Virus record (IMG/VR): IMGVR_UViG_3300007722_002006
Span: 1-22,400 of that record
Source of the DNA: a virus
Length of the DNA: 22,400 bases
Direction: 5' to 3' (one strand)
Part shown: in pieces, positions 1 through 19,333 of the stretch
How the letters are laid out: each line of letters opens with the position of its first letter
How positions within the stretch are numbered: position 1 is the first letter of the stretch
The notes under the pieces: model-generated
Told to the model about the DNA's origin: nothing
Databases searched by the model: none
The model's input: only the letters and a program-made list of their open reading frames with translations
Position numbers and translations under genes: made by a program

Positions 1-117
1 AGAAGCCCTTTGGCCGGATGTAAGTTTCACACAGCACGGACTTGCTTTCGCCCACAGAAACCCTTTGATGATTGCTGCCCGTAGATCGGAGATTGTGATA
101 GGTCTAACAGTCGTCAT
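1..117 (-). CDS. Partial hypothetical protein, N-terminal 39 residues
   Basis: An open frame begins at the ATG at 117 on the minus strand and runs off the left edge of the window without a stop, giving 39 residues. The ATG overlaps the stop of the preceding gene as ATGA (stop at 116-114), the coupling style used by other genes in this leftward run. It begins MTTVRPITISDLRAAIIKG and has a CC pair near residues 28-29. No family can be named from so short a piece. Because the overlap is tight and the frame stays open, it is probably a real gene. Confidence 0.55.
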   Translation of the reverse strand, partial: MTTVRPITISDLRAAIIKGFLWAKASPCCVKLTSGQRAS

Positions 118-800
118 TGGTTCCTTTCGGTGACGGTGAGCATACGATCAACGAGATCGTGGGCGGAGACACGAAGTTCCAGTACCGTGGGGGCGAGAGC
201 ATCCTGAGCGGCAACCTGAGCGGCAACCATAACGGCAACCCGAACGGCAGCCTGAGCGGCAACCCCAGCGGCAGCCTGAGCGGCAGCCTGAGCGGCATCC
301 CGAGCGGCAACCCCAGCGGCATCCCGAACGGCAGCCTGAGCGGCAGTCGCGTTTTCGCGGACCGCTTTCAAAACTGGAAGAATCGTTGGGTAGTTGTCGG
401 CATCGACAGGCTGCAACGATTCCAAAGTTTCGGCCTGAGAAGTGAGTCCCGCGAGCCGTAACCATGCGGGGGTTTGCACCCTGACAAGCCAATCGGTAGC
501 CAACCAAGCGCGAGTTTCTTCCTGCTCGGATGTGCCCGCAGAATTGACTAAACGCTGAATGTAACGTTTCAATTCTTGCCGTCGGTCGTCATCCGAATCG
601 TCATTCCATGTGCGCAAAAACGCTGCTATCACAGGCGAAACACATTCAGGGTGATCCGACCAAGGCTCACCTGCAATGAAAGCGACAGCCTCAAGGACAC
701 AGGCGCCGTCTTCTAGTGACTTGTGTGCGCCTTTTTCGAGTGTGAGTGTGTCAATGTTTAGTGATGGTGTCATGGTGGTTCCCTTTTCGTCGGTGGTCAT
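114..800 (-). CDS. Ala-rich hypothetical protein with a 12-bp repeat-encoded C-terminal helix
   Basis: This is a 228-residue protein of unknown function. Residues 11-130 form a compact-looking domain with GACVLEAVAFIAGEPWSDHP, a segment ending in SPVIAAFLRTWND, and later DWLV and PAWLRLAGL. I recognise this pattern from Ala-rich hypothetical proteins of actinobacteria and their phages, none with an assigned role to my knowledge. Residues about 155-200 are a four-residue repeat of the type (V/D/A)AA(Q/R/G), encoded by twelve 12-bp units at 203-346 and predicted to be one long helix. The end (LELRVSAHDLVDRML) is again non-repetitive. The start at 800 overlaps the upstream stop as ATGA and has GAGGAA before it. 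An ATG at 773 with AAAGGGA seven bases upstream is a reasonable alternative. Alanine content differs sharply from the genes to its right, which may point to transfer of this block. Confidence 0.8.
   Translation of the reverse strand: MTTDEKGTTMTPSLNIDTLTLEKGAHKSLEDGACVLEAVAFIAGEPWSDHPECVSPVIAAFLRTWNDDSDDDRRQELKRYIQRLVNSAGTSEQEETRAWLATDWLVRVQTPAWLRLAGLTSQAETLESLQPVDADNYPTILPVLKAVRENATAAQAAVRDAAGVAARDAAQAAAQAAAGVAAQAAVRVAVMVAAQVAAQDALAPTVLELRVSAHDLVDRMLTVTERNQ
203..346. repeat. 12 x 12-bp tandem repeat (minisatellite) inside the Ala-rich gene
   Basis: Twelve consecutive 12-bp units can be laid out without a gap. The plus-strand forms are CCTGAGCGGCAA, CCCGAACGGCAG, CCCCAGCGGCAT and close variants. 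The unit length is a multiple of three, so gain or loss of units keeps the gene in frame. The minus-strand reading gives four-residue helical repeats. No unit contains a stop in several other frames, which creates long spurious open frames here (Pro/Leu-rich, Ser/Gly-rich and Cys/Arg-rich). Confidence 0.95.
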
Positions 801-4717: not shown

Positions 4718-5068
4718 CTAGGGGGTTTCGTCGTTCATTTCTTTCTTCAGGTGGACAAGCTCATGGTTTGACTGCCACATGTTAGACTGGTCAAGCCGAT
4801 CATCAAGTTTGTCTACTTTTTCGTCGATTCCAGTTACCTGAGCGCTTAGGTGGGTTAAGAGAATCACACTCTGATCGGAAACTCCACGATTTTCGTTGTG
4901 CTGAGCGGTGTTCTCTTCACGGAAGAGATCCGAATCTTTCTTGGCCCGCCTATGCTGCTTGTTGTTTGATACCAAAATAGCGACTATGCCACTAGCAGCT
5001 GTGATTAACGATATAACGACTGGAACGATAATTACTTCTGCGACTGATGTAATGTTAGACATAGACAT
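4718..5068 (-). CDS. DUF2746-like single-pass membrane protein
   Basis: A 116-residue protein with one N-terminal membrane segment (residues about 9-33, including VIIVPVVISLITAASGIVAI and a following LV). A basic stop-transfer KQHRRAKK follows, then a soluble helical tail with heptads (LTHLSAQVTGIDEKVDKLDD) of coiled-coil type. This layout matches the DUF2746 family common in actinobacteriophages, some of which are annotated as holin-like, though that role is not established. Starts at 5068 and 5062 are both possible; AAGGA is spaced better for 5062. A promoter at 5108-5116 (TGCTATCCT) and an inverted repeat lie upstream. Confidence 0.75.
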   Translation of the reverse strand: MSMSNITSVAEVIIVPVVISLITAASGIVAILVSNNKQHRRAKKDSDLFREENTAQHNENRGVSDQSVILLTHLSAQVTGIDEKVDKLDDRLDQSNMWQSNHELVHLKKEMNDETP

Positions 5069-5921: not shown

Positions 5922-6305
5922 GTGAACGAGTTCTATGAGTTCCTTATGCACGATTTAAACCTTGTCTCGGAGGAGTTTGAAACTGATTCTGAGTGTGCGC
6001 ACGAAATTTGCAAGCTCTTGAGTGTTGACGATTTCCCGATCCCGGAGACGTTCTTCCGAATGTATACAGCCTCAGTTGATATCGACTATGTGGCATTTTA
6101 CAATGCCGCCAGCTTCTTTTCTGGTGCCGGACTCTTAAGTATCGACTGTGATTGCCCAGAGTCAGATAAATACTTGTGTGATATTGCTGGGATTCTTGAC
6201 AGCGCCTTCTTCGAGAAGGGGAGATCAGAGAAGACTCTTGAAACCGACGTTTACAGTTCAATCTGTGATCACATTGACGATCTAAGAAAGGACATTTTAA
6301 CGTGA
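5922..6305 (+). CDS. Acidic hypothetical protein
   Basis: A 127-residue acidic protein starting at GTG 5922, with GGAG a few bases upstream. Sequence features are an acidic helical N-terminus, a central YVAFYNAASFFSGAGLLSID, several cysteines (including DCDCPESDKYLC near residues 85-97) and a charged C-terminus. I recognise no family. Its TGA overlaps the GTG start of the deformylase gene, so the two are translationally coupled and co-transcribed. It is the first gene of the rightward half of the genome segment. Confidence 0.75.
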   Translation: MNEFYEFLMHDLNLVSEEFETDSECAHEICKLLSVDDFPIPETFFRMYTASVDIDYVAFYNAASFFSGAGLLSIDCDCPESDKYLCDIAGILDSAFFEKGRSEKTLETDVYSSICDHIDDLRKDILT

Positions 6306-6823
6306 TAATCAAATTTCCGAATGAAAAACTGGAAAGCGTTTCAGGAGAAGTTGTAGGTAATCTCACTTTAGATGAGGTATCTAAACTTTGTGAGCGTATG
6401 CGAAAAGAATGCTGGGAAGTTGGAGGGTTCGGTATCTCTGCAGTTCAAATTGGTGAACCGTTCAGGATCTTCGGAATTTACTCTCAGGCTGTTAGGGATT
6501 TGGTTTTTTTTATTGATCCAGAAATCTTTCATTTAGCAGGTCCTTCAATCGAAAATGAAGGCTGTTTATCAATTCCAGGTTATGAATGGAAAGTCGAAAG
6601 GTTCTATGAGGTCGGCTTGAATTACTTCGATCTGAACTTTAATTTGATGTCTGATAAGTTTGTGGGAATTGAAGCACGAGTAATCCAACATGAGATGGAT
6701 CACCTCGATGGCATTCTGCTTGTGGACTCTCTTAGTTCAGATGATTTCGATATATTTGTCTCTTATTTCCTTGGTAAGAAACCAGTTGGAGAATATGATC
6801 CTCCGCTCATCAAGATGACATGA
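6302..6823 (+). CDS. def: Peptide deformylase
   Basis: A 173-residue metal-dependent peptide deformylase, which removes the formyl group from the N-terminal Met of new proteins. All three family motifs are present. Motif 1 is GFGISAVQ at residues 42-49 (family GxGLAAPQ, with Ser and Val replacing Ala and Pro). Motif 2 is EGCLS at 86-90 with metal ligand Cys88. Motif 3 is QHEMDHLDG with His130, Glu131 and His134. The catalytic residues are therefore intact. The C-terminal tail past the last motif is short, as in the short deformylases reported from cyanophages. Start is GTG at 6302, overlapping the upstream stop. Phage deformylases are thought to help translate phage proteins in the host. Confidence 0.94.
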   Translation: MIIKFPNEKLESVSGEVVGNLTLDEVSKLCERMRKECWEVGGFGISAVQIGEPFRIFGIYSQAVRDLVFFIDPEIFHLAGPSIENEGCLSIPGYEWKVERFYEVGLNYFDLNFNLMSDKFVGIEARVIQHEMDHLDGILLVDSLSSDDFDIFVSYFLGKKPVGEYDPPLIKMT

Positions 6824-7400: not shown

Positions 7401-8213
7401 ATGATTTACGCAAAGATTATTGCTGACAGCATTACTGCTAGTGGAGATCGTTTGACGACGATGGAAGTCCGGATGCATCGATTCATGCTGCCTGAAATGA
7501 ATACTCATCGGGTTTTCTCACGGAACTCTGCAAGTTCTCGGGCTATTCCGATTTTTAAGCAGATCGCTAAAGTCTCAGAGCATCCGGCATACCCTGTAGA
7601 GTGGGGGCAGAACAAGGCAGGTATGCAGGCTGGTGAACCGCTTTCGGGGAGCAAAACTAGAAAAGCAAAGAGAATCTGGAAGAAAGCATCAAAGTCTGCC
7701 ATTAAGCACTGTAGGGCCCTTGAAGCACTCGGTGTCCATAAGCAAGTTTCCAATCGCATTATTGAGCCGTTTATGTGGCATACGGTTATTGTTAGTTCAA
7801 CTGAATGGACTGGATTCTTTGCGCAGAGGTGTAGTGAGTTGGCTCAGCCCGAGATTAGGGCTGTAGCGATTGCCATGCAGACAGCGTACAGGAATTCTGT
7901 TCCTCATTTCATTGTTAGGGGGGAATTTCATCTCCCATACCTTCACCCGGAAGAATTTTGTTTAGATGACATTAAAAAAATCAAGATTTGTATTGCCAGA
8001 TGCGCTCGGGTGTCTTATTTGACTCATAACAATGAGAGATCTATTGCGAAAGACTTACAACTGTTTGACAGACTTATGAGTGCCGATCCTCCTCATTGGA
8101 GCCCTATGGAACATGTGGCAACTCCTATTGATGATGGTCTGAACCCCGCTGGGAACTTCAATGGGTTCGCTCAGATAAGACACAATTCTCATTGGTGGTT
8201 TGATGGTTCCTAA
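7401..8213 (+). CDS. thyX: Flavin-dependent thymidylate synthase
   Basis: A 270-residue ThyX, which makes dTMP from dUMP using methylene-tetrahydrofolate and a reduced flavin. The signature THRVFSRNSASSR at residues 35-47 corresponds to the family RHRxxSxNxxSxR, with Thr in the first position as in many phage enzymes I recall. Later segments typical of the family are FFAQRCSELAQPEIRAVA and HWSPMEHVATP. The length suits phage ThyX. Together with the class II reductase downstream it makes a deoxynucleotide supply set. The start at 7401 is favoured by the promoter and by the family N-terminus. It overlaps the next small gene by 11 nt. Confidence 0.95.
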   Translation: MIYAKIIADSITASGDRLTTMEVRMHRFMLPEMNTHRVFSRNSASSRAIPIFKQIAKVSEHPAYPVEWGQNKAGMQAGEPLSGSKTRKAKRIWKKASKSAIKHCRALEALGVHKQVSNRIIEPFMWHTVIVSSTEWTGFFAQRCSELAQPEIRAVAIAMQTAYRNSVPHFIVRGEFHLPYLHPEEFCLDDIKKIKICIARCARVSYLTHNNERSIAKDLQLFDRLMSADPPHWSPMEHVATPIDDGLNPAGNFNGFAQIRHNSHWWFDGS

Positions 8214-8423: not shown

Positions 8424-8471
8424 TGTATTATTGAAGTTTTCTGCAGAATAATCAAAATGAGGTTCTAACTG

Positions 8472-9302
8472 ATGAATATTGTAACTCGCGCTGAATGGGG
8501 TGCCCGTGAGCCCTTCCAGCCGTATACAAATCTGGTCGGGTCGGAAGGTGAACTCGCCCATCACACCGGCGACGGGGTTGCTAGAGACCCAGCCACCACC
8601 GATTACCCGGCGATGATGCGACAAATCCAAAACAGTCACATGGCCAAAGGTTGGAACGATTTTGCTTATGGTCATGCTGTCGGCGGAGGAAGAATCTTTA
8701 TGGGCAGAGGGTTCGGGGTAGTAGATGCGGCCGACCTCGATCGTGGATACCTCATGCACTCTGTGCTCTGGTTGGGTGACTCCACTGTGAACGAAATTCC
8801 AGATCAAGACATGGCGTTAGTCTGGGCTGTGTTCGATGAACATAACCGTATATACGGCAAAAAGTTTGAAGGCGGACACCGTGATGTCAACCCGACTGGT
8901 TGCCCCGGCGACAACATTTACAGTAAATTACAGCAGGGGCGCTCTGCGTCAAATGCAGTTCAAGCTTTTTCTACAATTAAACCAAGGAGTCCTGAAATGA
9001 ACACGATTATTAATTCTTCTGGAGGCCGCGAATGCTTCGCCCTCCGTTCCAATGGAGAAGTCTGGAACCAGTGGCAGGAACTGCCTGCGGTCACTTTCTC
9101 AGCTTGGAACAAGACGCTCGATGGCGATCGCTGGGAAACTCTCGCCAAGCCGTTACTGGTCGGCAAAGCCGTATGGCTGAACCTCGCCGGTGATTACGGG
9201 TTCGGTTTCCTCAATATGACTGCTATCCAGAGCGGTCCGGGGGAAGCGTTTGTGCTACATGTCACTAACGAACTTAACAAGTTTTTCGCAGGTCTGAAGT
9301 AG
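8472..9302 (+). CDS. Endolysin, N-acetylmuramoyl-L-alanine amidase (PGRP/Amidase_2)
   Basis: A 276-residue endolysin that would cut the amide bond between muramic acid and the stem peptide of peptidoglycan. The N-terminal amidase domain (residues 1-155) opens VTRAEWGARE and carries zinc ligands in HHTG (His30/31) and in GHRDVNPTGCPG (His136, Cys144). Residues about 176-276 form a separate C-terminal domain, probably for wall binding (SNGEVWNQWQELP, GDRWETLAKPL). There is no signal peptide, so release would need a holin. Within the frame, ATG 8997 (Met176) is preceded by AAGGAG at the best spacing and may yield the C-terminal domain alone. It has its own promoter at 8415 and is followed by a long hairpin. 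Confidence 0.92.
   Translation: MNIVTRAEWGAREPFQPYTNLVGSEGELAHHTGDGVARDPATTDYPAMMRQIQNSHMAKGWNDFAYGHAVGGGRIFMGRGFGVVDAADLDRGYLMHSVLWLGDSTVNEIPDQDMALVWAVFDEHNRIYGKKFEGGHRDVNPTGCPGDNIYSKLQQGRSASNAVQAFSTIKPRSPEMNTIINSSGGRECFALRSNGEVWNQWQELPAVTFSAWNKTLDGDRWETLAKPLLVGKAVWLNLAGDYGFGFLNMTAIQSGPGEAFVLHVTNELNKFFAGLK
8984..9302 (+). CDS. Internal in-frame start: separate C-terminal domain of the endolysin
   Basis: AAGGAG at 8984-8989 stands seven bases before ATG 8997, which is in the endolysin frame. It falls exactly between the amidase domain and the C-terminal domain. Translation from it would give a 101-residue product starting MNTIINSSGG. Several known endolysins (for example Lys170 and clostridial CD27L and CTP1L) make such a short wall-binding product that assembles with the full-length enzyme. 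The Shine-Dalgarno match is better than that of the full-length start. Coordinates include the ribosome site. Expression is inferred. Confidence 0.6.
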
Positions 9303-9377: not shown

Positions 9378-9423
9378 ATAATAGCAGAAGCCGGGGCGTA
9401 CACACCCCGGCTTCTGCTATTAT
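9378..9423. terminator. Perfect 19-bp hairpin, bidirectional terminator-like, overlapping a promoter
   Basis: Arms 9378-9396 and 9405-9423 are perfect reverse complements over 19 bp with an 8-nt loop (CGTACACA) and a GC-rich top. It lies between the endolysin and sugar-cassette genes. The flanking A-run at 9372-9378 gives a good U-run for minus-strand reading, while in the plus direction the tail is UAUUAUAUA. The 3' arm contains TGCTATTAT, the promoter of the next gene. Confidence 0.8.
9415..9423 (+). promoter_or_regulatory. Extended -10 promoter TGCTATTAT for the sugar cassette
   Basis: It sits at the end of the hairpin's 3' arm, six bases before ATG 9430. The resulting mRNA would be leaderless and would not include the hairpin. 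Confidence 0.6.
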
Positions 9424-9429
9424 ATACAC

Positions 9430-10305
9430 ATGAACTTTGACGAAACGACATTAGAGAAAATCCTTGGAAGAAAGCAGCACACGTTCCCCTCGTTATATGA
9501 CGATTGCGTAGACTCCTACACAGATAGCACAATCCTAATAACGGGGGCAAAGGGGAGTTTGGGTGTTGGTGTTCAGAATTTCCTTTATCGGAATAAAATT
9601 AGATGTAATCTGATCGCCACTGATATCGTTACCGGCCCTGAAGATGATAATGAAAAAATCTTGAATGTCGCAAGTTGGCCTGATGTTGCAAAAGTTGTTC
9701 GGAGGTATAATCCTGATGTCATATTTCATTTCGCAGCCGACAAACACGCTCCTGCGGGAGAGGAAACTCCAGAAGAGACAATTAAGATTAACATAGGTGG
9801 TACACAAAACTTACTGGACGCCTGTGATGAAAATACAAAGATAATATTAGCTAGCACGTGCAAGTCGGGCAATCCAGAGACCGTTTACGGCGCAACTAAG
9901 TTGATCGCTGAGCGACTGGTGCTAAATAGGGGGCATAATGTTGCCAGGTTCTACAATGTTGTGGAAACTTCCGGCAATGTTTTCGAGATTTGGAATGAAC
10001 AGGCGATGTCTGATCACACAGTCACAGACTGCGGACGATATTTTATTTCTTTAGATGAAGCAATTTCGTTAGTTATGTTTACTGGAATTCAAGAATCTGG
10101 CCGGTACACGATTGACCCAGGGAAGATTCGAATTATGGAAGATGTTTATCAAGATTTATATGGTGGAGATGCCGGAAGGCTCTCAGAGCCTAGGCGTGGC
10201 GATCGGGTTACCGAGCTGAGAATTGCTACCTCAGAAAAATTAAAAAGCGTTGACAATTATCCATTCGAAGAGATCGGAAATGATCACGATGTACTATGGA
10301 AATAA
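9430..10305 (+). CDS. NAD(P)-dependent sugar-nucleotide dehydratase/epimerase (PseB/FlaA1-like)
   Basis: A 291-residue short-chain dehydrogenase of the PseB/FlaA1/CapD group, which act on UDP-GlcNAc as 4,6-dehydratases or epimerases. The Rossmann motif is GAKGSLG (residues 39-45). FHFAADKHAP and NIGGTQNLLDAC match the family core. The active-site segment reads STCKSGNPETVYGATK (142-157), with Lys145, Tyr153 and Lys157 in place. The acid that precedes Lys in the family (STDKA) is Cys144 here. The later segment TVTDCGRYFISLDEAISLVM is also typical. It is somewhat shorter than FlaA1 (about 333 residues). It heads an overlapping operon with an aminotransferase and acyltransferase. The Asp-to-Cys change may alter or weaken dehydration; epimerase activity is an alternative. 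Confidence 0.88.
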   Translation: MNFDETTLEKILGRKQHTFPSLYDDCVDSYTDSTILITGAKGSLGVGVQNFLYRNKIRCNLIATDIVTGPEDDNEKILNVASWPDVAKVVRRYNPDVIFHFAADKHAPAGEETPEETIKINIGGTQNLLDACDENTKIILASTCKSGNPETVYGATKLIAERLVLNRGHNVARFYNVVETSGNVFEIWNEQAMSDHTVTDCGRYFISLDEAISLVMFTGIQESGRYTIDPGKIRIMEDVYQDLYGGDAGRLSEPRRGDRVTELRIATSEKLKSVDNYPFEEIGNDHDVLWK

Positions 10306-11401
10306 GCCGGATATAAAAGATATCGACATTCAAAAAGTAGAGAGCGTTCTGAGAAGTGGAAGTCTAGCTCAGGGGATGTTCGTTGAACGCCTTGAAGACA
10401 GGATGAAGAAACTCTGTAATAGGGAGAGCGCAGCGGCCTTTTCGAGCGCAACATCGGCATTTGAGTGCTTATGGGATTATCTCGATCTCGGAGAGGGAGA
10501 TGAAGTTATCTTGTCTCCAATGACCTTCAAGTCTGTTCCGATGTCGATTATTCGATCCGGTGCCACTCCAGTATTCGTTGACACTAACTACTTATCCCTT
10601 GCCGATTGGTATTTAGTTAAAGATCTTATAAATTCAAACACAAAAGCAATTGTAGTGACAAATCTCTATGGAATGCCAGATCCGCACTTGAACATGCTAT
10701 TTGATGCTATTTCAGATAGAGATGACATTTTTCTTATCGAGGACAACGCTCAGGCGATTGGTGCAAAGTATGCAGATTCACGCCCAGTGGGATCTTGGGC
10801 TTCACGATCAGATTTTTCCATTTTCTCTTTCTACGCCACCAAAAATATTACTAGCATCGAGGGCGGAGTTATTTTATTCGATGACGACACAAACTTCTTT
10901 CACCAGTATAGAAACAATGGCACTGCGAAGAATATTGCGGGGGAAACTTGTTTAGGAACTAACATGAGAATGAGTGATGTAGCAGCGACACTCGGGGTCT
11001 CTCAGTTAGAGCGACTTGAGCATGTTACGATGATTCGCAATGAACAGGCTAAAATTTATAGGTCAATATTAAGTATTGACAATCCTCAGCTATCATATCT
11101 TCCTCACGGCTCAACTCACGCTTTTCACCACTACACCGTTTTGCTGCCATATAATGTTGATCGAGCGATGTTCATATCAGAGATGTCTCTTGCTAGTATT
11201 TCGATTGGCATTTACTATGAATACCTCCTGAACTACGATGAGACTTTCTCAAAGACTTTGCACCTAAATAAGACTCCAGAAGCGAAGGGTCAGTCTAAGA
11301 GGTGTGTTTCGTTACCTTTGGGGACTAAGTTGAACAGGAAAGATATTATCTATATCGCCAATACGTTCAATCGAATTCTAGAAAAAGTGAGGAGCAATTG
11401 A
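10289..11401 (+). CDS. DegT/DnrJ/EryC1 sugar aminotransferase (PseC-like)
   Basis: A 370-residue PLP-dependent aminotransferase, which transfers an amino group to a keto-sugar nucleotide. The N-terminus MYYGNKPDI followed by VLRSGSLAQG is typical of the family. AFSSATSAF is the PLP phosphate region, and IEDNAQAIGA carries the Asp that contacts the PLP nitrogen. The Schiff-base lysine is Lys185 in FYATKNITSIEGG. All key residues appear intact. The start at 10289 fits the family N-terminus; ATG 10280 and a TTG at 10250 are in frame upstream. It overlaps the dehydratase gene by 17 nt and would use that enzyme's keto product. Confidence 0.92.
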   Translation: MYYGNKPDIKDIDIQKVESVLRSGSLAQGMFVERLEDRMKKLCNRESAAAFSSATSAFECLWDYLDLGEGDEVILSPMTFKSVPMSIIRSGATPVFVDTNYLSLADWYLVKDLINSNTKAIVVTNLYGMPDPHLNMLFDAISDRDDIFLIEDNAQAIGAKYADSRPVGSWASRSDFSIFSFYATKNITSIEGGVILFDDDTNFFHQYRNNGTAKNIAGETCLGTNMRMSDVAATLGVSQLERLEHVTMIRNEQAKIYRSILSIDNPQLSYLPHGSTHAFHHYTVLLPYNVDRAMFISEMSLASISIGIYYEYLLNYDETFSKTLHLNKTPEAKGQSKRCVSLPLGTKLNRKDIIYIANTFNRILEKVRSN

Positions 11402-12132
11402 TGTTTATAGATTACTTTGTCCATCCTTCCGCCTCAGTTTATGGGGATGTCATGATCGGGGCCGGGACAATAGTTGGTCCCAATGCCGTCATACTTGGCC
11501 CCGTCAATATTGGGTCTAACTGTTGGATTGGTCCAAATGCTATCATCGGGACTCCTGCCGAGGATGTGGAGATGATGGTAAAGGCGGAGTTGCCAAGATA
11601 TCCAAATTACTTTGCAGAGATTGGGCAAATTAATGAGATGCTTTGGAATATTGATCATGGGGAAGGTGTCGTCATCGGACACAATACTGTGATCAGAGAA
11701 CAAGTCACGATTCACCAAGGGACAGTCCATAGCACAATAATTGGGGATAACTGCTTCGTTATGAATAAGTCTCATGTTGGGCACGACTGCGTTATCGGAA
11801 ATAACGTCCGCATCTCTCCGTCAGCCATGATTGGAGGGCATTGTTGGATTGATCGCTACTCTAACATTGGTATGGCGGCTACTATTCATCAGAATATTAG
11901 AATTGGGTTTGGGGCGATGATCGGAATGAATGCAGCGGTAGTAAAGGGCGTGCTTCCTTACTCGACAGTTGTCGGAGTTCCGGCGAAGTTTTCTGGAATG
12001 AATTGGGTTATGGCGAAGAAACTCGAAGTTTCAGAGGACTCAATGCGTATGCTTGAGAAAAGTTACAATTCCGAGGCGCATCCCCCTTCCGAGTTCGTTT
12101 CCATGCTTGCGGAGCACGGCCAATGGGGATAG
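11401..12132 (+). CDS. LpxA-like left-handed beta-helix acyltransferase
   Basis: A 243-residue acyltransferase built of hexapeptide repeats (for example GAGTIVGPNAVILGPVNIGS near residues 20-39). It carries the LpxA-type elements REQVTIHQGT and KSHVGHDCVIGNN, with the His pair that includes the catalytic base of LpxA. A Gram-positive host would lack lipid A, and the gene lies between an aminotransferase and glycosyltransferases. An N-acyl- or acetyltransferase for an amino sugar nucleotide is therefore more likely than LpxA proper. ATG 11401 shares a base with the TGA of the aminotransferase gene (TGATG), so translation is coupled. The C-terminal 50 residues lie outside the helix repeats. Confidence 0.85.
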   Translation: MFIDYFVHPSASVYGDVMIGAGTIVGPNAVILGPVNIGSNCWIGPNAIIGTPAEDVEMMVKAELPRYPNYFAEIGQINEMLWNIDHGEGVVIGHNTVIREQVTIHQGTVHSTIIGDNCFVMNKSHVGHDCVIGNNVRISPSAMIGGHCWIDRYSNIGMAATIHQNIRIGFGAMIGMNAAVVKGVLPYSTVVGVPAKFSGMNWVMAKKLEVSEDSMRMLEKSYNSEAHPPSEFVSMLAEHGQWG

Positions 12133-12683
12133 TAGATGTGACTGTCGTCACCCCCACCATCCCTGTCAGGTCGAAGATGTTGAGCGAGTGCATGTTATCT
12201 GTGGCTAACCAAACTGTAACCCCGAAGGCACACTTGATCTCTGTTGACTTCGAAAGAATCGGGGCAGCAAGAGTGTTGAATAAAATGATTTCAGCAGTAA
12301 CTACGGAATGGATTGCCCCTCTAGCGGATGATGACTTATTTTATCCAAACTATCTAGAAAGGCTTCTTGACGAGGCTGGAGACGCGGACATGATATATCC
12401 ATGGACAGAAGTCGTCGGTACCAGAAATGGATGGAATCCGAACTCATATCTTGACCTAGAAAGACTCAAGTCCAATAATTACATTCCTGCAACTGTCCTG
12501 ATGAGGAAGTCGGCTTGGGAGGACGTAGGTGGATACCCAGAGGTGGTGTGCGAGGATCATGCGCTCTGGCTCAAGTTAATGGAGCATGGAAAAGTAATAA
12601 AATGTTTGCCAGAGATCCTGTGGCAGTACCGGTTTCACGGAAGAAATATTTCTGATGGAACATATGCCCCCCATGAGGTATAA
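12123..12683 (+). CDS. Family 2 (GT-A) glycosyltransferase, short
   Basis: A 186-residue GT-A glycosyltransferase. It opens VTVVTPTIPVR and SVANQT, the usual nucleotide-binding start. The acidic metal motif is LADDDLFYP near residue 72, then GGYPEVVCEDHALWLKLME supplies the catalytic-type acidic ED. It is shorter than usual GT2 enzymes, lacking C-terminal extensions, but the core is complete. It overlaps the acyltransferase by 10 nt. Its TAA stop lies within the TATAAT of the next gene's promoter. Confidence 0.85.
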   Translation: MGIVDVTVVTPTIPVRSKMLSECMLSVANQTVTPKAHLISVDFERIGAARVLNKMISAVTTEWIAPLADDDLFYPNYLERLLDEAGDADMIYPWTEVVGTRNGWNPNSYLDLERLKSNNYIPATVLMRKSAWEDVGGYPEVVCEDHALWLKLMEHGKVIKCLPEILWQYRFHGRNISDGTYAPHEV

Positions 12684-12684
12684 T
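12679..12684 (+). promoter_or_regulatory. -10 box TATAAT overlapping a stop codon
   Basis: A perfect TATAAT hexamer lies six bases before ATG 12691. It is preceded by GAGG rather than by the usual TGn. The TAA stop of the preceding gene (12681-12683) is inside it. Confidence 0.5.
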
Positions 12685-12690
12685 AGCCAA

Positions 12691-13386
12691 ATGAAGAAAA
12701 TCGCAATCGTAATGCCGGTGCTAAACCAGTTCGAATTAGGGATAAAAGCCCTTGAATCAGTACAAGTGTCGCACCACGCCTATTGGCAACCATTCATCAT
12801 TGACAACTGGGATGTGAACAAGGGGGTTGCTGCCGCATGGAATCTCGGAACCAAGCGAGCCATTGATGCGGGGTTTAATTACATATTGATAATCAATGAC
12901 GATGTCGTCTTAGCCCCGAATACGCCAGAGCATCTTTCTAGTGTCATCGACAATGACGACATTGGGCTAGCGTCGGCAACTAACTTTAGAGATACCATGA
13001 GTCCCATTGAGGTGAAGAACTCTTCTCATGTATATTATGAGAATGATATTATTGACGCCCCTGACTTTTCATGTTTTATGATTACTCCAGATACATATGA
13101 CCACATTGGGGACTTTGACGAGGGATTCTCTCCGGCTTACTTCGAGGACAACGATTACTGCTACAGGACTATCTTGTCAGGTCTGAAATGTGTGCGCTCT
13201 CAGTCGGCGATGTTTTATCACTACGGGTCAAAGACCAACGAGGGAGGGAATGTCCTATCTCATTCAGCATTTTCGGCTAATAGGAACAGGTTTGTTTCGA
13301 AGTGGGGAGGATTTCCAGGGGGAGAAACTTTTACAAAACCTTGGAATGATAACGCCCTAAATTGGCGTGATTCTCGTAAAGAGTGA
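12691..13386 (+). CDS. Family 2 glycosyltransferase
   Basis: A 231-residue GT2-type enzyme starting MKKIAIVMPVLNQFELGIKA. NKGVAAAWNLG and ILIINDDVVLAP supply the nucleotide- and metal-binding acidic pair. FSCFMITPDTYDHIGDFDEG and YFEDNDYCYR match the acceptor and catalytic region of rhamnosyl- or galactofuranosyl-type enzymes (family D-x-D-F-F-x-E-D pattern). I choose ATG 12691 because it follows the -10 box by six bases and gives the normal GT2 N-terminus. An upstream in-frame start at 12655 would add residues outside the family. The product transferred is unknown. Confidence 0.88.
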   Translation: MKKIAIVMPVLNQFELGIKALESVQVSHHAYWQPFIIDNWDVNKGVAAAWNLGTKRAIDAGFNYILIINDDVVLAPNTPEHLSSVIDNDDIGLASATNFRDTMSPIEVKNSSHVYYENDIIDAPDFSCFMITPDTYDHIGDFDEGFSPAYFEDNDYCYRTILSGLKCVRSQSAMFYHYGSKTNEGGNVLSHSAFSANRNRFVSKWGGFPGGETFTKPWNDNALNWRDSRKE

Positions 13387-13403
13387 TCATCACCGCAAAC
13401 TGA

Positions 13404-13412
13404 TGCTACACT
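13404..13412 (+). promoter_or_regulatory. Extended -10 promoter TGCTACACT
   Basis: Seven bases separate the hexamer from ATG 13420, which is in frame with the downstream Shine-Dalgarno-led start at 13495. The transcript may be leaderless or have a 75-nt leader with a GGCCT/AGGCC stem. Confidence 0.5.
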
Positions 13413-13494
13413 GCCTCAGATGGACACACAGAGGCCTCACAGGGGACAGCAGGCCACGTGTCAGAGCATAGATCGTGAAAGAAAAGGAGAAAAA

Positions 13495-13668
13495 ATGGCA
13501 AAGGTAAAAATTAGCAGAGAAAAACTTCCAGATTGTACGGAAAGCGAGATCATCATCTATCCAGATGGAGACAGATCCCGTCCTCGTATCGGGGTCTTAA
13601 AGTTCGAGAAGGGTCTTTCCAAATTGGAACTTGACCCAGGATTTTCTCCCTACCGGAGTATGAACTGA
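13495..13668 (+). CDS. Small basic hypothetical protein, possible second start at 13420
   Basis: A 57-residue protein beginning MAKVKISREKLPDCTE, with segments SEIIIYPDGDRSRPRIGVL and KFEKGLSKLELDPG that suggest a small beta-rich fold. No family is recognised. AAGGAG five bases before ATG 13495 is a strong ribosome site. The frame is open upstream to ATG 13420, which stands seven bases after an extended -10 box. A leaderless 82-residue form with a polar N-terminal extension is therefore also possible. It lies alone between glycosyltransferase genes. Confidence 0.7.
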   Translation: MAKVKISREKLPDCTESEIIIYPDGDRSRPRIGVLKFEKGLSKLELDPGFSPYRSMN

Positions 13669-13677
13669 CATCTAGTG

Positions 13678-13686
13678 TGGTATAAT
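13678..13686 (+). promoter_or_regulatory. Extended -10 promoter TGGTATAAT
   Basis: TGTGGTATAAT, identical to that at 8413-8423. It is followed by a leader of about 50 nt with a stem GTTGC/GCGAC (13694-13698 with 13706-13710) and AGGAGGA before ATG 13743. Confidence 0.7.
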
Positions 13687-13742
13687 TTCCAGAGTTGCGA
13701 ACGTAGCGACACAACTTTTATATTGAGTGAAGTAGGAGGAAC

Positions 13743-14924
13743 ATGAACGATGGCAGAATTAAAGTAGTGATTTTCGGGGTTGATGATGACGTCATTTTCG
13801 ATGAGTCAATCAACACAGTCTCTCGTAGAACTGCTATGACATGGAGTAGGGATATCGCAGAGGCTAGGCCGAATCTTATTATTACTTTTGGAGATCTTGA
13901 TGACTTCGATGGTCTAGTAGACTCTGCGCTGCACATTCGCAGGAAATGGCTTCATTTCTCTAGTGACAGGTTTGAGGAGCTTAAAGGGAGCTATAAGTCT
14001 ATTGTTGACAATTTCTTTACCTTTTCATTAAATGACAAAAGAGATTTTTCTGAGCCTCTAGTTTCCGTCATTACACCGACATACAATACTTCTAATATGT
14101 TCTGGCCGTACCGCTCTTTGATGGGTCAGTCATACAAGAACTGGGAATGGATTGTCTACGATGATGGCTCCACAAGTGAAGAAACTTTAAACTCTATCCG
14201 CCAAATTGCAGATATGGACCCTAGAGTCCAAGTCTTTCTCGATGCCCACTCTGGGGTTATCGGTGAAGTGAAGAAGAATGCCTTCAGCTTGGCTAATGGC
14301 GACTATCTGGTTGAACTTGATCATGATGATGAGCTTTTGCCAAATGCCCTTTCTGATGTCGTTGAGGCTTTCGCTAGGTTCCCTGATTCTGGTTTTTGCT
14401 ACTCGGACTGTGCCGAAGTTATCGGAGAAGATCACGAGGACGCCACATATCCTGACGGCTGGGGTTTTGGTTACGGAAGTTACCGTACCGAGTTTTATCG
14501 TGGGCGAAATTATCAAGTAATGAATTATCCATCGGTTAACCCAAAGACTGTCCGTCATATTGTAGGAATGCCTAATCATGTCAGAGCATGGAGGAAGTCT
14601 TTTTATCAGACCGTGGGGGGGCATGATAAGCGCCTCCACGTTGCGGACGATTATGAGATTTTAGTAAGGACTTTCCTTCACACTAGGATGGTTCATATCA
14701 AGAGGTTTGGATATATCCAATATCATCACGATAACAACGCCCAGAAAGCTCGCAATGCTGACATTCAGAGGCTTGTCAAAATGACTTGGATTGCCTATGA
14801 GGATGACATCCACAACCGCCTTGTTCAACTTGGGGTTGATGATTTCATTTGGCGAGATGGTGTTGTCCACTGGGACACCGAGAACCCTCAGGTTGCACAA
14901 ATTGCAAATTATGAGATGAAATGA
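13743..14924 (+). CDS. Family 2 glycosyltransferase with an N-terminal extension
   Basis: A 393-residue protein. Residues 1-100 form an N-terminal domain of unknown role (IKVVIFGVDDDVIFDE; LIITFGDLDDFDGLVDSA). From about residue 105 the GT-A core begins: SVITPTYNTSNMF, then WEWIVYDDGSTSEE, then the metal motif YLVELDHDDELLPNA. VGMPNHVRAWRKSFYQTVGG and HVADDYEILVR follow with the catalytic-type acidic pair. The GT2 assignment is secure; donor and acceptor are unknown. AGGAGGA lies at good spacing before ATG 13743, and the gene has its own promoter. The tRNA-like gene begins seven bases after its stop. Confidence 0.9.
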   Translation: MNDGRIKVVIFGVDDDVIFDESINTVSRRTAMTWSRDIAEARPNLIITFGDLDDFDGLVDSALHIRRKWLHFSSDRFEELKGSYKSIVDNFFTFSLNDKRDFSEPLVSVITPTYNTSNMFWPYRSLMGQSYKNWEWIVYDDGSTSEETLNSIRQIADMDPRVQVFLDAHSGVIGEVKKNAFSLANGDYLVELDHDDELLPNALSDVVEAFARFPDSGFCYSDCAEVIGEDHEDATYPDGWGFGYGSYRTEFYRGRNYQVMNYPSVNPKTVRHIVGMPNHVRAWRKSFYQTVGGHDKRLHVADDYEILVRTFLHTRMVHIKRFGYIQYHHDNNAQKARNADIQRLVKMTWIAYEDDIHNRLVQLGVDDFIWRDGVVHWDTENPQVAQIANYEMK

Positions 14925-14931
14925 TATCTCA

Positions 14932-15001
14932 GCCCGATGCTCTGGATGAGCGAGTGATGCTTCTAACTTTACTTTGGTAGGTTCGATTCCTACATTGGGC
15001 A
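14932..15001 (+). tRNA. Shortened tRNA-Arg(UCU)-like gene
   Basis: The acceptor stem pairs GCCCGAT (14932-14938) with ATTGGGC (14994-15000), with one G-U pair. The T arm is perfect (GTAGG TTCGATT CCTAC), and the anticodon loop CTTCTAA gives UCU for Arg. Departures from the norm: there are no bases between the acceptor and D stems, and the D arm GCTC TGGAT GAGC has only a five-base loop. The anticodon stem is seven pairs long with G-U and U-U pairs (AGTGATG/CTTTACT), and the variable loop is three bases. CCA is not encoded (A CTA follows). It may be a working phage tRNA with compensating changes, a decaying copy, or a tRNA mimic. Confidence 0.6.
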
Positions 15002-15025
15002 CTAAACAAAGGTGAATGTATTGAA

Positions 15026-16018
15026 ATGAATGTAAAAAAAATTGGATGGTTTAGCCCTCCGGGTCTTGGTGAAGGGATGGGATATGGATATGCCGCAGTG
15101 AGGGTAATAAAGGCCCTCCAGAATAATCATGTCCAAGTTCTGTACGACAACAAAGATGCCAAGTGTCACATCTCTTTTGTACAGCCTGAATATTATAGCG
15201 GGCTAAATGATCAGTTCCGTATAGGATATACTCCGTGGGAGTCATCTGCGATCCCTGAATCTTGGCCTCGTATTATGCGTGATATGCAAGAGATTTGGAC
15301 TCCATCTAAATATTGTGCTTCAGTGTTTGAAGAATATAATGTCAATAAGGTCATTAGAGTTGTCCCCCACGGAATTGATCCAGACGTTTGGAAGATAGAG
15401 AATAGATATCTTACCGACAAGTTCGTTTTCTTGCATGTCGGAGGTCCGACTGCCAGAAAGGGGGGACAGAGAGTTGTAGATGCTTTCCTTGATTTATTCG
15501 ATGGCAACAAAGATGCTGTATTGATTTTAAAATCTAATGAGGCAACTGAGTGCAGGTATTATGATAAGAAAGAGAATTTCCACAGCGCAACAGATCATGA
15601 TCAAATTCTGGTCATTGATCGCCCTGTTGATGTTGAGGATTTGGTTGAAGTCTACAACAAAGCCCACTGTTTAGTTTATCCTACGAATGGCGATGGTTTT
15701 GGACTTATCCCCTTTCAGGGTATAGCGACAGGTCTTCCGACTATTGTGACTAATGCCACCGCCTGCGCTGATTTTGCTGAGATGTCAATTCCGCTAGATT
15801 CCAGCCCGGCTCCGGGCGTAGGTGTTCATCTTGGCAATTGGGTTGAACCAGATGCGGATGATCTTCGGGATAAGATGAGGTACGTTTTCGATAACTTCAA
15901 CGAGGTCAAAGAGAAGACTCTGCATTCCGCCAATTTGATTCACAGCAACCAGACTTGGGATCACATAGGCAAGATGATAATTGGAATTCTTGGGGAGAAA
16001 ATCTCAGAAACTTTGTGA
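15026..16018 (+). CDS. Family 4-like (GT-B) glycosyltransferase
   Basis: A 330-residue GT-B enzyme. The N-terminus IGWFSPPGLGEGMGYGYAAV contains the glycine-rich acceptor-side loop. RVVPHGIDPDVW is the typical linker motif between domains, and FLHVGGPTARKGG starts the donor domain. NGDGFGLIPFQGIATGLP is the donor-binding EGFGLxxxEAMAxG segment, with Asp in place of the first Glu and Gln in place of the second, a catalytically relevant position. No signal peptide is seen. ATG 15026 follows AAAGGTG by about 11 nt, a somewhat long spacing. It is the last gene of the glycosylation block. Confidence 0.88.
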   Translation: MNVKKIGWFSPPGLGEGMGYGYAAVRVIKALQNNHVQVLYDNKDAKCHISFVQPEYYSGLNDQFRIGYTPWESSAIPESWPRIMRDMQEIWTPSKYCASVFEEYNVNKVIRVVPHGIDPDVWKIENRYLTDKFVFLHVGGPTARKGGQRVVDAFLDLFDGNKDAVLILKSNEATECRYYDKKENFHSATDHDQILVIDRPVDVEDLVEVYNKAHCLVYPTNGDGFGLIPFQGIATGLPTIVTNATACADFAEMSIPLDSSPAPGVGVHLGNWVEPDADDLRDKMRYVFDNFNEVKEKTLHSANLIHSNQTWDHIGKMIIGILGEKISETL

Positions 16019-16085: not shown

Positions 16086-16120
16086 AGGGGTAGGCGCTAC
16101 TTTTGTGGCGAGCCACCTCT
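16086..16120 (+). promoter_or_regulatory. Hairpin leader RNA of the ribonucleotide reductase gene
   Basis: Extended imperfect stem: AGGGGT (16086-16091) pairs with ACCTCT (16115-16120, one G-U), GG (16093-16094) with CC (16113-16114), and CGCTAC (16095-16100) with GTGGCG (16105-16110, one U-G) over a TTTT loop. That is 14 pairs interrupted by a single A bulge and an AG bulge. It ends nine bases before AGGAG and has no U-tract after it, so it is not a terminator. Its place ahead of a B12-dependent enzyme gene suggests a cis-regulatory element. I do not see the standard cobalamin riboswitch core. A dedicated RNA motif upstream of nrdJ genes has been described, and comparison with it would be decisive. 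Confidence 0.55.
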
Positions 16121-16138
16121 AAATATATAGGAGAAAAA

Positions 16139-19100
16139 GTGGAGAACGAGAACTATCTAAGTTTTAAATTGCCTGACGATTTTATTTCCCAGTACGAGGG
16201 GAGAGATGTTCCGTGGGGGTTCCCGATTGGGTCAGGAAATTCCCTTGGTGAACTTACCTTTCTTACTAAATATTCTAGGAGAAAGAAAGACGAGACAAAG
16301 GAGCGCTGGTTCGAAACTTGCCGGAGAGTAATTGAGGGAACTTTTACCATCCAAAAGGATTGGTGCAAGGAAAGTCGCCTTCCGTGGAATGAACGCAAAG
16401 CCCAATCTACCGCCCAAGACGCTTACGAGAGGCTCTTCGTGGGTAAGTGGACTCCTCCCGGCAGAGGCTTGTGGATGATGGGAACGGAGTTTGTTCATGC
16501 AAAGAAGAACTCTGCTGCTCTACAAAGTTGCAGCTTCCTTTCTACTGAACATATTTCTTCACGTAGCGTCTATGATGCTACTTGGCCGTTTATTCGACTT
16601 ATGGAAATGTCCATGCTCGGTGTCGGGGTAGGCTTTGATACCAAAGGGGCGGGGAAGCTGGAGATCCATGATCCATCTAGTGATTACAAGGTTTTTGTAA
16701 TCCCCGATACTCGTGAGGGCTGGTGTGATTCTGTAGGGATGCTTCTTGAATCATATTTCTTCGCCAATAGAAGCATGGTTACTTTTGACTACAGCGAGAT
16801 TCGCCCTTCGGGGGAGCCCATCCGGGGCTTCGGTGGCGTCTCTGCTGGCCCTGATCCTCTGGTCGCCCTTCATAAGATGCTCAATGAGCAGTTTGCGGGG
16901 AGGGCGGGCGAGAAAGTTAGTTCTACTGACATTGTTGACATTTCCAATAAGATTGGGAAATGTGTTGTCTCCGGGAATGTCAGGCGCTCAGCTCTCATAT
17001 CTCTTGGCAATTCTGACGATCAAGATTTCCTTGATTTGAAGAATTGGGAAATCAACCCTGTACGGATGGGGCCTAATGGTTGGGGACATACCTCTAATAA
17101 TTCTATCATTGCCAATGTTGGTGACGACTTCTCAAATATTGCCGATCTCATTGCGAAGAATGGAGAGCCAGGGATTTTGTGGCTTGATCTTTGCCAAAAG
17201 TACGGGAGACTTGCTGACCCTATCGACAATAAGGATCATCGCGCTCGCGGCTCGAATCCTTGTGCCGAGCAGACTTTGGAGTCTGGGGAATGTTGCACGT
17301 TGGTAGAGAATTTTATTTCTCGTCATGACTCTTTTGAAGATTTTGAGAAAACATTGAAAGTCTCGTACCTCTATGCAAAGACTGTAACTCTTCTCCCGAC
17401 CCATTGGCCTGAAACTAACGCGATTATGCAACGTAATCGCCGGATCGGATGTTCAATCTCTGGCTTCGCCCAGTTTGCGGAGGCCTATGGTTGGACAACT
17501 TTGCGGGGTTGGCTTGATGATGGATATGATCACATTCAAATGTTAGATAACAAGTATTCAGAGTGGCTGGGTTGCCGTCAGTCAATTAAGACAACGTCCG
17601 TAAAACCATCTGGGTGTCGTCCTTGGGATGCGCTAACTGTAACATCTCGTGGGATCCTTACCCTTCAGGAGATGTTCAAAGATCACCCGGAAGACACACA
17701 GTGGCATCCAAGTGGGGATTCAGTTGTAACTGAAGATGGAGTTAAGAAAGTCAGTCAGACTTACGATAATGGTAAAAAGCAGGTCATGCGAGTAGGTATG
17801 ACCGGAAAAATGGAAGTTGAGTCTACATTAAACCACCAATGGTTTGTGACAAAGCGAAGAGCTAGGAACTATGGGGAGAATAGGCACGATGACGTAAACG
17901 AGTGGGTTAAGGCGGAAGACCTAAGGGTCGGTGACGTTTTGGCCCTGACTCCCGGACTGTATGAAAATACCAGCTCCGCACCCCTAAAGGTAGTGAACCG
18001 CAGGCACATTAGTATGAGATCTGACGCCAAAGAAATCTCGCAGCCAAGTGAAATGAATTCTGATTTATCTTGGCTAATAGGCTACATGTGGGGCGATGGA
18101 AGTCAGTCTTTAGGTCATTGGAGAATTCGTTTCAGTGACGATGATCGTTCAATTCTAGAAAATGCACAAAGAATCATCAAGGACAACTTTGGGATCGAAG
18201 GAACCATCTCAAAGAGTGGATCATCTGAAGGTATGGACCTATGCATTGCGTCTAAGTATTTATGGCATTGGTTTATTTTAAATGGCATTTTCAAGTATGA
18301 TCTCTCGACAGAGGAGTTAGATTTGATTCCCTATGTAGTCAGGTCCAGTTCAAGAGAGCACGTCATAGCGTTTATTGCCGGAATGATTGATGCTGAGGGT
18401 GGCTTCTATAGGGTAGGCGAAAGAACAACTGTCCAGATAACAAATAGTGACACTAGACTTGCCAAGCATATGCAGCATGTATCCTCATCAGTGGGGATTC
18501 TGCTTAGCCGAAGCGTGAACAAGGGTGAATCAGAAGGGCACTATGGGGCCCCAATTGAGCATCTCTATGTATGGTCTAATGGTTCCGATATTAAATCCTT
18601 AGAGTTGCTGAAGAGTCTTTCCGTAAAGGGGGCTAGATTTGAGCACTCTAATGGGTGGGCTACCCAAAGCAAGTCAAAGCCATACGGGGAGGTCTGTTAT
18701 ATGGAAGACCTTGGAGAGAAGGAAACTTTTGATTTTGAGGTTCCGGACGGTCACTACTATTACAATGGAGCAGTAAAGTCCCACAACACTGTGTCATTAC
18801 TTTTCGGTGTTACTCCCGGTGTGCATTGGCCTACTGCGGATGTTTATATTCGTCGTATGAGATTGGCGTCTAACGACCCTCTAGTTGATGCCCTTGCGGA
18901 TGCTGGATACCATACTGAACCTGACGTGATGGACCCCAAGCATAGTGTTGTTGTGGAACTTCCAACTAAGGGGCCGGATGTCCGCACAGAGAACGAGGTC
19001 TCAATGTGGGAGAAGACACAACTTGCAATCCTTGCTCAGCGACATTGGGCGGACAATCAGGTGTCTGTTACTGTGACTTTCAAGGAGGATGAGCGGGATC

Positions 19101-19333
19101 AGATTGGAGCATTGTTGAGTTCTGTTGATGGTCAACTTAAGTCTATTTCTATGCTCCCAATTCTTGAGGCTGGGGGAGCATATGCTCAGATGCCTTATGA
19201 GCGGATTGGGATAAAGACTTGGGAAGATATGTGTTCTCAGACGAAGAAGATAAAGTGGAAGAGTCTGTACGCAGGGAAGTCTTTGGATGCAGCTGGCGAA
19301 GCTTTCTGCTCGAATGACAGCTGCATTGTCTAA
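16139..19333 (+). CDS. nrdJ: Class II (B12-dependent) ribonucleoside-triphosphate reductase with intein
   Basis: A 1064-residue precursor that becomes a 673-residue monomeric adenosylcobalamin-dependent reductase after intein removal. It reduces ribonucleotides to deoxyribonucleotides. Family residues are in place: Cys131 in LQSCSF, the radical Cys375 in NPCAEQ with Glu377, its partner Cys386 eleven residues later, and the C-terminal shuttle pair Cys1057/Cys1062 in FCSNDSCIV. IRPSGEPIRGFGG is typical of the Lactobacillus leichmannii-type enzyme. A 391-residue intein (residues 493-883) interrupts the KPSG/TVSLLFGV segment. GTG 16139, five bases after AGGAG, is the start; the ATG at 16103 falls inside the leader hairpin. 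A strong terminator follows. With ThyX it supplies deoxynucleotides without oxygen or a small subunit. Confidence 0.95.
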   Translation: MENENYLSFKLPDDFISQYEGRDVPWGFPIGSGNSLGELTFLTKYSRRKKDETKERWFETCRRVIEGTFTIQKDWCKESRLPWNERKAQSTAQDAYERLFVGKWTPPGRGLWMMGTEFVHAKKNSAALQSCSFLSTEHISSRSVYDATWPFIRLMEMSMLGVGVGFDTKGAGKLEIHDPSSDYKVFVIPDTREGWCDSVGMLLESYFFANRSMVTFDYSEIRPSGEPIRGFGGVSAGPDPLVALHKMLNEQFAGRAGEKVSSTDIVDISNKIGKCVVSGNVRRSALISLGNSDDQDFLDLKNWEINPVRMGPNGWGHTSNNSIIANVGDDFSNIADLIAKNGEPGILWLDLCQKYGRLADPIDNKDHRARGSNPCAEQTLESGECCTLVENFISRHDSFEDFEKTLKVSYLYAKTVTLLPTHWPETNAIMQRNRRIGCSISGFAQFAEAYGWTTLRGWLDDGYDHIQMLDNKYSEWLGCRQSIKTTSVKPSGCRPWDALTVTSRGILTLQEMFKDHPEDTQWHPSGDSVVTEDGVKKVSQTYDNGKKQVMRVGMTGKMEVESTLNHQWFVTKRRARNYGENRHDDVNEWVKAEDLRVGDVLALTPGLYENTSSAPLKVVNRRHISMRSDAKEISQPSEMNSDLSWLIGYMWGDGSQSLGHWRIRFSDDDRSILENAQRIIKDNFGIEGTISKSGSSEGMDLCIASKYLWHWFILNGIFKYDLSTEELDLIPYVVRSSSREHVIAFIAGMIDAEGGFYRVGERTTVQITNSDTRLAKHMQHVSSSVGILLSRSVNKGESEGHYGAPIEHLYVWSNGSDIKSLELLKSLSVKGARFEHSNGWATQSKSKPYGEVCYMEDLGEKETFDFEVPDGHYYYNGAVKSHNTVSLLFGVTPGVHWPTADVYIRRMRLASNDPLVDALADAGYHTEPDVMDPKHSVVVELPTKGPDVRTENEVSMWEKTQLAILAQRHWADNQVSVTVTFKEDERDQIGALLSSVDGQLKSISMLPILEAGGAYAQMPYERIGIKTWEDMCSQTKKIKWKSLYAGKSLDAAGEAFCSNDSCIV
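17615..18787 (+). mobile_element. Intein with LAGLIDADG homing endonuclease in the reductase gene
   Basis: A 391-residue in-frame insertion begins at Cys (CRPWDALTVTSRG, block A). It has TLNH as block B and ends AVKSHN, with Thr as the first residue after it. These are the usual splice residues: Cys1, the TxxH histidine, penultimate His, final Asn and a Thr +1 nucleophile. Two LAGLIDADG motifs, WLIGYMWGDGS (about 18071-18103) and FIAGMIDAEGG (about 18371-18403), give an intact dodecapeptide homing endonuclease with both acidic residues. Removing it restores KPSGTVSLLFGVTPG, a conserved reductase segment. There is no frameshift, so splicing and homing are probably active. Confidence 0.94.

Follow-up and report, generated by a model that had tools for sequence, protein, structure and literature searches.

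The endolysin gene and its surroundings

The window, i.e. the whole stretch of DNA that was analysed (22,400 nucleotides, positions 1 to 22,400 of IMG/VR virus record IMGVR_UViG_3300007722_002006), represents a 22.4-kb piece of a tailed-phage genome. Since the best relatives of its portal protein belong to Streptomyces phages (42–46% identity), the host of the phage is likely to be Gram-positive and actinobacterial. An endolysin gene of 276 codons begins with an ATG at 8472 and ends with a stop codon at 9300–9302. The features of the gene are listed below, together with the comparison with L002, a related endolysin from IMG/VR (SD, Shine–Dalgarno sequence).

8459–8464, plus strand: GAGGTT, the SD belonging to the full-length start, with a 7-base spacer to the ATG at 8472 (seen in the sequence; duplex −6.3 kcal/mol)
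8472–9302, plus strand: endolysin open reading frame, 276 amino acids, PGRP-type amidase and C-terminal domain (matches to phrog_1493 and PGRP structures)
8478–8936, plus strand: PGRP/amidase domain, residues 3–155 (PGRP structures, E down to 7e-12)
8685–8702, plus strand: decoy GGAGGA with ATG (Met77) within the amidase (stronger SD pairing, poor spacing, conserved GGG motif)
8937–8996, plus strand: linker, residues 156–175, where conservation of the protein is lowest (in columns 161–170, one residue in 10 is identical to L002)
8984–8989, plus strand: AAGGAG, the internal SD, separated by 7 bases from the internal ATG (seen in the sequence; AGGGG at equal distance in L002)
8997–8999, plus strand: internal start codon ATG, Met176 (seen in the sequence; kept in L002)
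8997–9302, plus strand: predicted second product, 101 amino acids, free C-terminal (putative wall-binding) domain (read from the sequence)
9006–9113, plus strand: PLL-lectin W-motif, one β-propeller blade, residues 179–214 (phmmer and profile matches to PLL3)
9129–9299, plus strand: second half of the C-terminal domain, residues 220–276 (58% identical to L002 over residues 222–276)

Neither Pfam nor NCBIfam named a domain anywhere in the endolysin, and the assignment of the amidase was obtained from the PGRP structures and from endolysins of phrog_1493 (E = 4.9e-11). The residues His30, His31, Tyr66, His136, and Cys144 are invariant between the window endolysin and L002; we take these to be the positions expected for zinc binding or catalysis in PGRP amidases, and they presumably have that role here. 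The N-terminal amidase region is common to the window protein, the phrog_1493 endolysins, and the endolysin of Streptomyces phage Sycamore (28.8% identity over residues 1–156), whereas the C-terminal domain of the window protein has no similarity to theirs.

Upstream of the endolysin, a gene for a phage-encoded peptide deformylase (6302–6823, plus strand; E = 5.5e-32) is followed by ThyX at 7401–8213. Because no holin adjoins the endolysin, the small protein encoded at 4718–5068 on the opposite (minus) strand, whose N-terminal part has a single membrane-like segment and whose tail is charged, is a possible holin or spanin-like candidate. The protein encoded at 114–800 (minus strand) has an Ala/Gln-rich C-terminal tract (AAQAAAQAAAGVAAQAA...), and the same DNA gives near-regular repeats in other frames too. 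Between the endolysin stop codon and the next gene lies an inverted repeat that is almost perfect and has a core rich in G+C (9378–9423, plus strand; −36.2 kcal/mol, z −9.8). It has a run of A at its left, making it terminator-like when read on the minus strand, and it may act as an insulator between the endolysin and the downstream nucleotide-sugar gene. The latter belongs to a block of sugar genes (9430–16018, plus strand) encoding a nucleotide-sugar epimerase/dehydratase, an aminotransferase, a hexapeptide-repeat acetyltransferase-like protein, and several glycosyltransferases, which may modify virion or wall sugars. A tRNA-Arg with the anticodon TCT is found at 14932–15002 (plus strand); AGA (85) and AGG (88) are the commonest arginine codons in the window's genes. 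An intein bearing a LAGLIDADG endonuclease domain (about residues 520–895) interrupts the B12-dependent ribonucleotide reductase at 16103–19333 (plus strand).

The predicted internal start site and its statistics

The preliminary description of this DNA had reported AAGGAG, seven bases, and an ATG at 8997 in the endolysin frame, located at the boundary between the amidase and the C-terminal domain and giving rise to a 101-residue product. These points were all borne out. The SD at 8984–8989 is separated by the spacer TCCTGAA (8990–8996) from the ATG at 8997–8999, which shares its frame with the ATG at 8472, and the frame read from there to the stop codon yields 101 residues beginning with MNTIINSS. 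Met176 falls outside both domains, after the amidase homology (PGRP, residues 3–155) and three residues before the PLL-lectin homology, which starts at residue 179.

To what extent the site differs from chance was examined by counting and by modelling. In the window's genes, an SD equally strong at workable spacing was present at 158 of 5534 codon positions (2.9%) and at four of 118 internal ATGs, and when the codons upstream of Met176 were replaced with random synonymous ones, an SD this strong arose with P = 0.024. SD pairing by itself separates the Met176 site from chance only weakly. Total initiation was estimated with a simplified model of the RBS-calculator type, distinct from the original RBS calculator, which comprises SD pairing, spacing, start codon, and local mRNA folding. 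Of the 196 internal in-frame starts scored across the window's genes, Met176 (8,790 arbitrary units) came first. Within its own gene, it exceeded the next internal site, Met77 (1,797), almost fivefold, and the remaining internal sites of the gene were below 210. By the criterion of PMC9430671, initiation at Met176 in the simplified model was clearly above the background of the gene. The mRNA accessibility predicted at the internal site was a little lower than the average (0.37 vs. 0.43).

The internal site had also been described as stronger than that of the full-length start. This was correct only in the window gene and only for the pairing of the SD (−8.0 vs. −6.3 kcal/mol). It did not apply to the modelled total, which was 1.5 times higher for Met1 than for Met176 (about 13,300 vs. 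8,800 arbitrary units), leaving Met176 clearly second in the gene.

We rejected Met77 as a second internal start, as it is located within the amidase and poorly spaced from its SD, which the codons of the GGG motif impose (P about 0.5 when synonymous codons are drawn at random). The SD and ATG of Met77 are conserved in L002 too. Thus, since the Met77 site is coding-driven yet conserved, conservation alone is no proof of function.

Homologues were searched for with protein and alignment scans and a degenerate-pattern scan of viral contigs, with scans of genome contigs, and with tblastn of phage genomes. L002, which is 65% identical across the entire length, was the sole full-length relative found; the viral contigs, genome contigs, and phage genomes yielded no others. 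L003, L005, and Sycamore were related in the amidase only, and L007 and L008 were rejected as chance pattern matches. The neighbourhood of L002 (L002:1165–4509) differs from that of the window, as its endolysin is followed directly by genes for head packaging (terminase, portal) and does not lie in a sugar-gene block.

The conservation of the internal SD and ATG, suggested earlier as a check, was found in this relative, although one sequence lends limited support (n = 1): L002 keeps Met176, and AGGGG is located 7 bases upstream, its pairing with the anti-SD including one G-U. The internal SD of L002 is weaker, with 32% of random synonymous versions attaining the same strength. In the simplified model, its internal site ranked second of 32 internal sites in the genes of L002, with a total of 8,800 vs. 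14,400 arbitrary units for the full-length start. Alignment of the two genes showed that similarity returns at the SD after the nearly unconserved linker, and that Arg172 is encoded by AGG in both, this being the sole AGG/AGG pair among nine conserved arginines.

A PLL-type blade in the C-terminal domain

Pfam, NCBIfam, and PHROGs did not name the C-terminal domain. When compared with solved structures, residues 179–214 matched most of the W-motif repeats of the lectin PLL3 (6t96), both as a single sequence (phmmer, E = 9.8e-6) and as a two-sequence profile (E = 5.3e-8); these E-values are summed over several lectin repeats, and single repeats score weakly. In the profile search, PLL, PLL2, and other PLL/PHL lectins came next, and repeat after repeat was aligned. 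For each of five PLL3 repeats, none of 500 shuffles reached the pairwise score of residues 179–214. The blade makes up roughly the N-terminal 40 residues of the short product, which begins where the blade segment begins.

PLL lectins are seven-bladed propellers in which each W-motif blade is four-stranded and the sugar sites are located between adjacent blades (PMC6943638). The seven tandem W-motifs per chain that are a trait of this family were not seen in the window protein, where one motif is recognisable, fused to an amidase and followed by about 57 further residues that matched no family. A second PLL blade in this second half was not supported, as it scored like shuffled sequence. The structure predictions had too low confidence to be used (mean pLDDT 33.5 for the full-length protein and 40.3 for the 101-residue product).

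A PLL-repeat probe, in which the joint between the two repeats was filled from the repeat pattern, detected no PLL-type blade in other phage proteins among the phage records, and no report of a PLL-type wall-binding domain in an endolysin was found in open-licence papers or phage records. The ligand of the domain is presumably a wall sugar, and this type of putative wall-binding module is apparently unreported among endolysins.

Two predicted products and their possible assembly

An internal start at this layout has been shown experimentally for Lys170, LysIME-EF1, CTP1L, CD27L, CS74L, and LysP7951, with AAGGGGG (CTP1L, CS74L) and GAGGGAG (CD27L) as SD variants; the ratio of full-length to short chains is 1:3 in Lys170 and LysIME-EF1, 2:2 in CTP1L and its relatives, and 1:5 in LysP7951 (PMC9430671, PMC4777826). 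Knocking out the internal site of CTP1L resulted in monomers and lower activity (PMC4777826), and about 50% of the endolysins of phages with Gram-positive hosts are predicted to carry an internal start (PMC9430671, PMC4777826). These proteins have been called type II iTSS endolysins (PMC12203907). In common with them, the window gene has an N-terminal catalytic domain, an in-frame SD and start codon at the domain boundary, and a second, here predicted, product consisting of the C-terminal domain alone. It differs in that their products have been proven experimentally, whereas the window case is known from sequence and probably has an actinobacterial host, and in that its C-terminal domain has a PLL-lectin blade motif, of which we found no report in endolysins.

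The reading that we prefer, with a probability of roughly 0.6, is that of a type II iTSS endolysin with two starts. Ribosomes starting at the ATG at 8472 would produce the 276-residue amidase with its wall-binding domain, and those starting at the ATG at 8997 the free 101-residue wall-binding domain. The free domains would then associate with their counterpart in the full-length protein, and the resulting complex would contain one or a few amidases and several wall-binding sites. Production of both proteins is the more secure part of this proposal and appears probable; assembly of the full-length and short chains is an evenly balanced matter.

The principal alternative is that Met176 is an ordinary structural methionine, that AAGGAG arises from Pro-Arg-Ser codons, and that only the full-length enzyme is made in meaningful amounts. 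The frequency of equally strong SD sequences (2.9% of codon positions) is compatible with this, as is the conservation of another site in this gene, Met77, that probably has no function, and in a published screen, portal genes used as controls gave 15% predicted sites, presumed to be false (PMC9430671). However, Met176 has the top total initiation score of the 196 scored internal sites, its spacing is good, its position is exactly at the domain boundary, and the homologue has retained the site within a diverged linker, so that we consider a chance origin somewhat unlikely. A different view is that an amidase gene was once fused to a separate lectin-domain gene and that the internal start is the leftover ribosome site of the latter, now without function. 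The SD and ATG do look like those at the beginning of any ordinary gene, conservation is lacking in the linker, and the relatives of the C-terminal domain belong to a different protein family, but no unfused relative was found in the collections searched, and any such fusion is not recent, because two proteins that are 65% identical both retain the site. We regard this as the least probable of the explanations.

The short product might also be made and act alone, as a free wall binder that occupies or tunes sites, thereby affecting timing or shielding released phage from enzyme trapped on debris. Precedents are provided by LysJavan488, which makes two polypeptides whose interaction was unobserved, and by the isoforms of Ms6, which affect lysis timing (PMC9430671). 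On the other hand, descriptions of heteromultimers are confined to endolysins in which the internal start yields nothing but the wall-binding domain, and all studied endolysins of this kind that the review names form them (PMC9430671). One PLL blade would also probably be unstable as a monomer. We regard independent action as improbable, though less so than the fusion relic.

If the two-start endolysin is the correct reading, the blade itself suggests what the additional chains could be for. Since a single PLL blade can neither close a propeller nor form sugar sites between blades, partner chains would be needed, and by analogy the free C-terminal chains could join the full-length chain to complete a propeller ring. 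In the most specific form of this idea, the internal start exists for a lectin ring in which several 101-residue chains and one amidase-bearing chain close the propeller, internal translation sets the stoichiometry of the oligomeric head, and the sugar sites are formed at the seams between chains; we offer it as speculative and rather doubtful. Each chain would then contribute one recognisable blade, or two if the second half is a diverged blade. The Ralstonia solanacearum lectin RSL is trimeric and builds a six-bladed propeller from short chains (PMC10306066), serving here as a precedent for an oligomeric propeller by analogy, with no sequence relation to the window protein being claimed. By design, fragments of WD40 blades have given oligomers with six to nine blades (PMC6805158).

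Few internal starts in endolysins have been proven, and the reason for them varies from case to case. If real, the present one would add to this group an amidase that carries a PLL-type lectin blade and comes from a phage whose host is likely actinobacterial, and it would provide a structural reason for extra wall-binding chains, i.e. that the blade needs partners.
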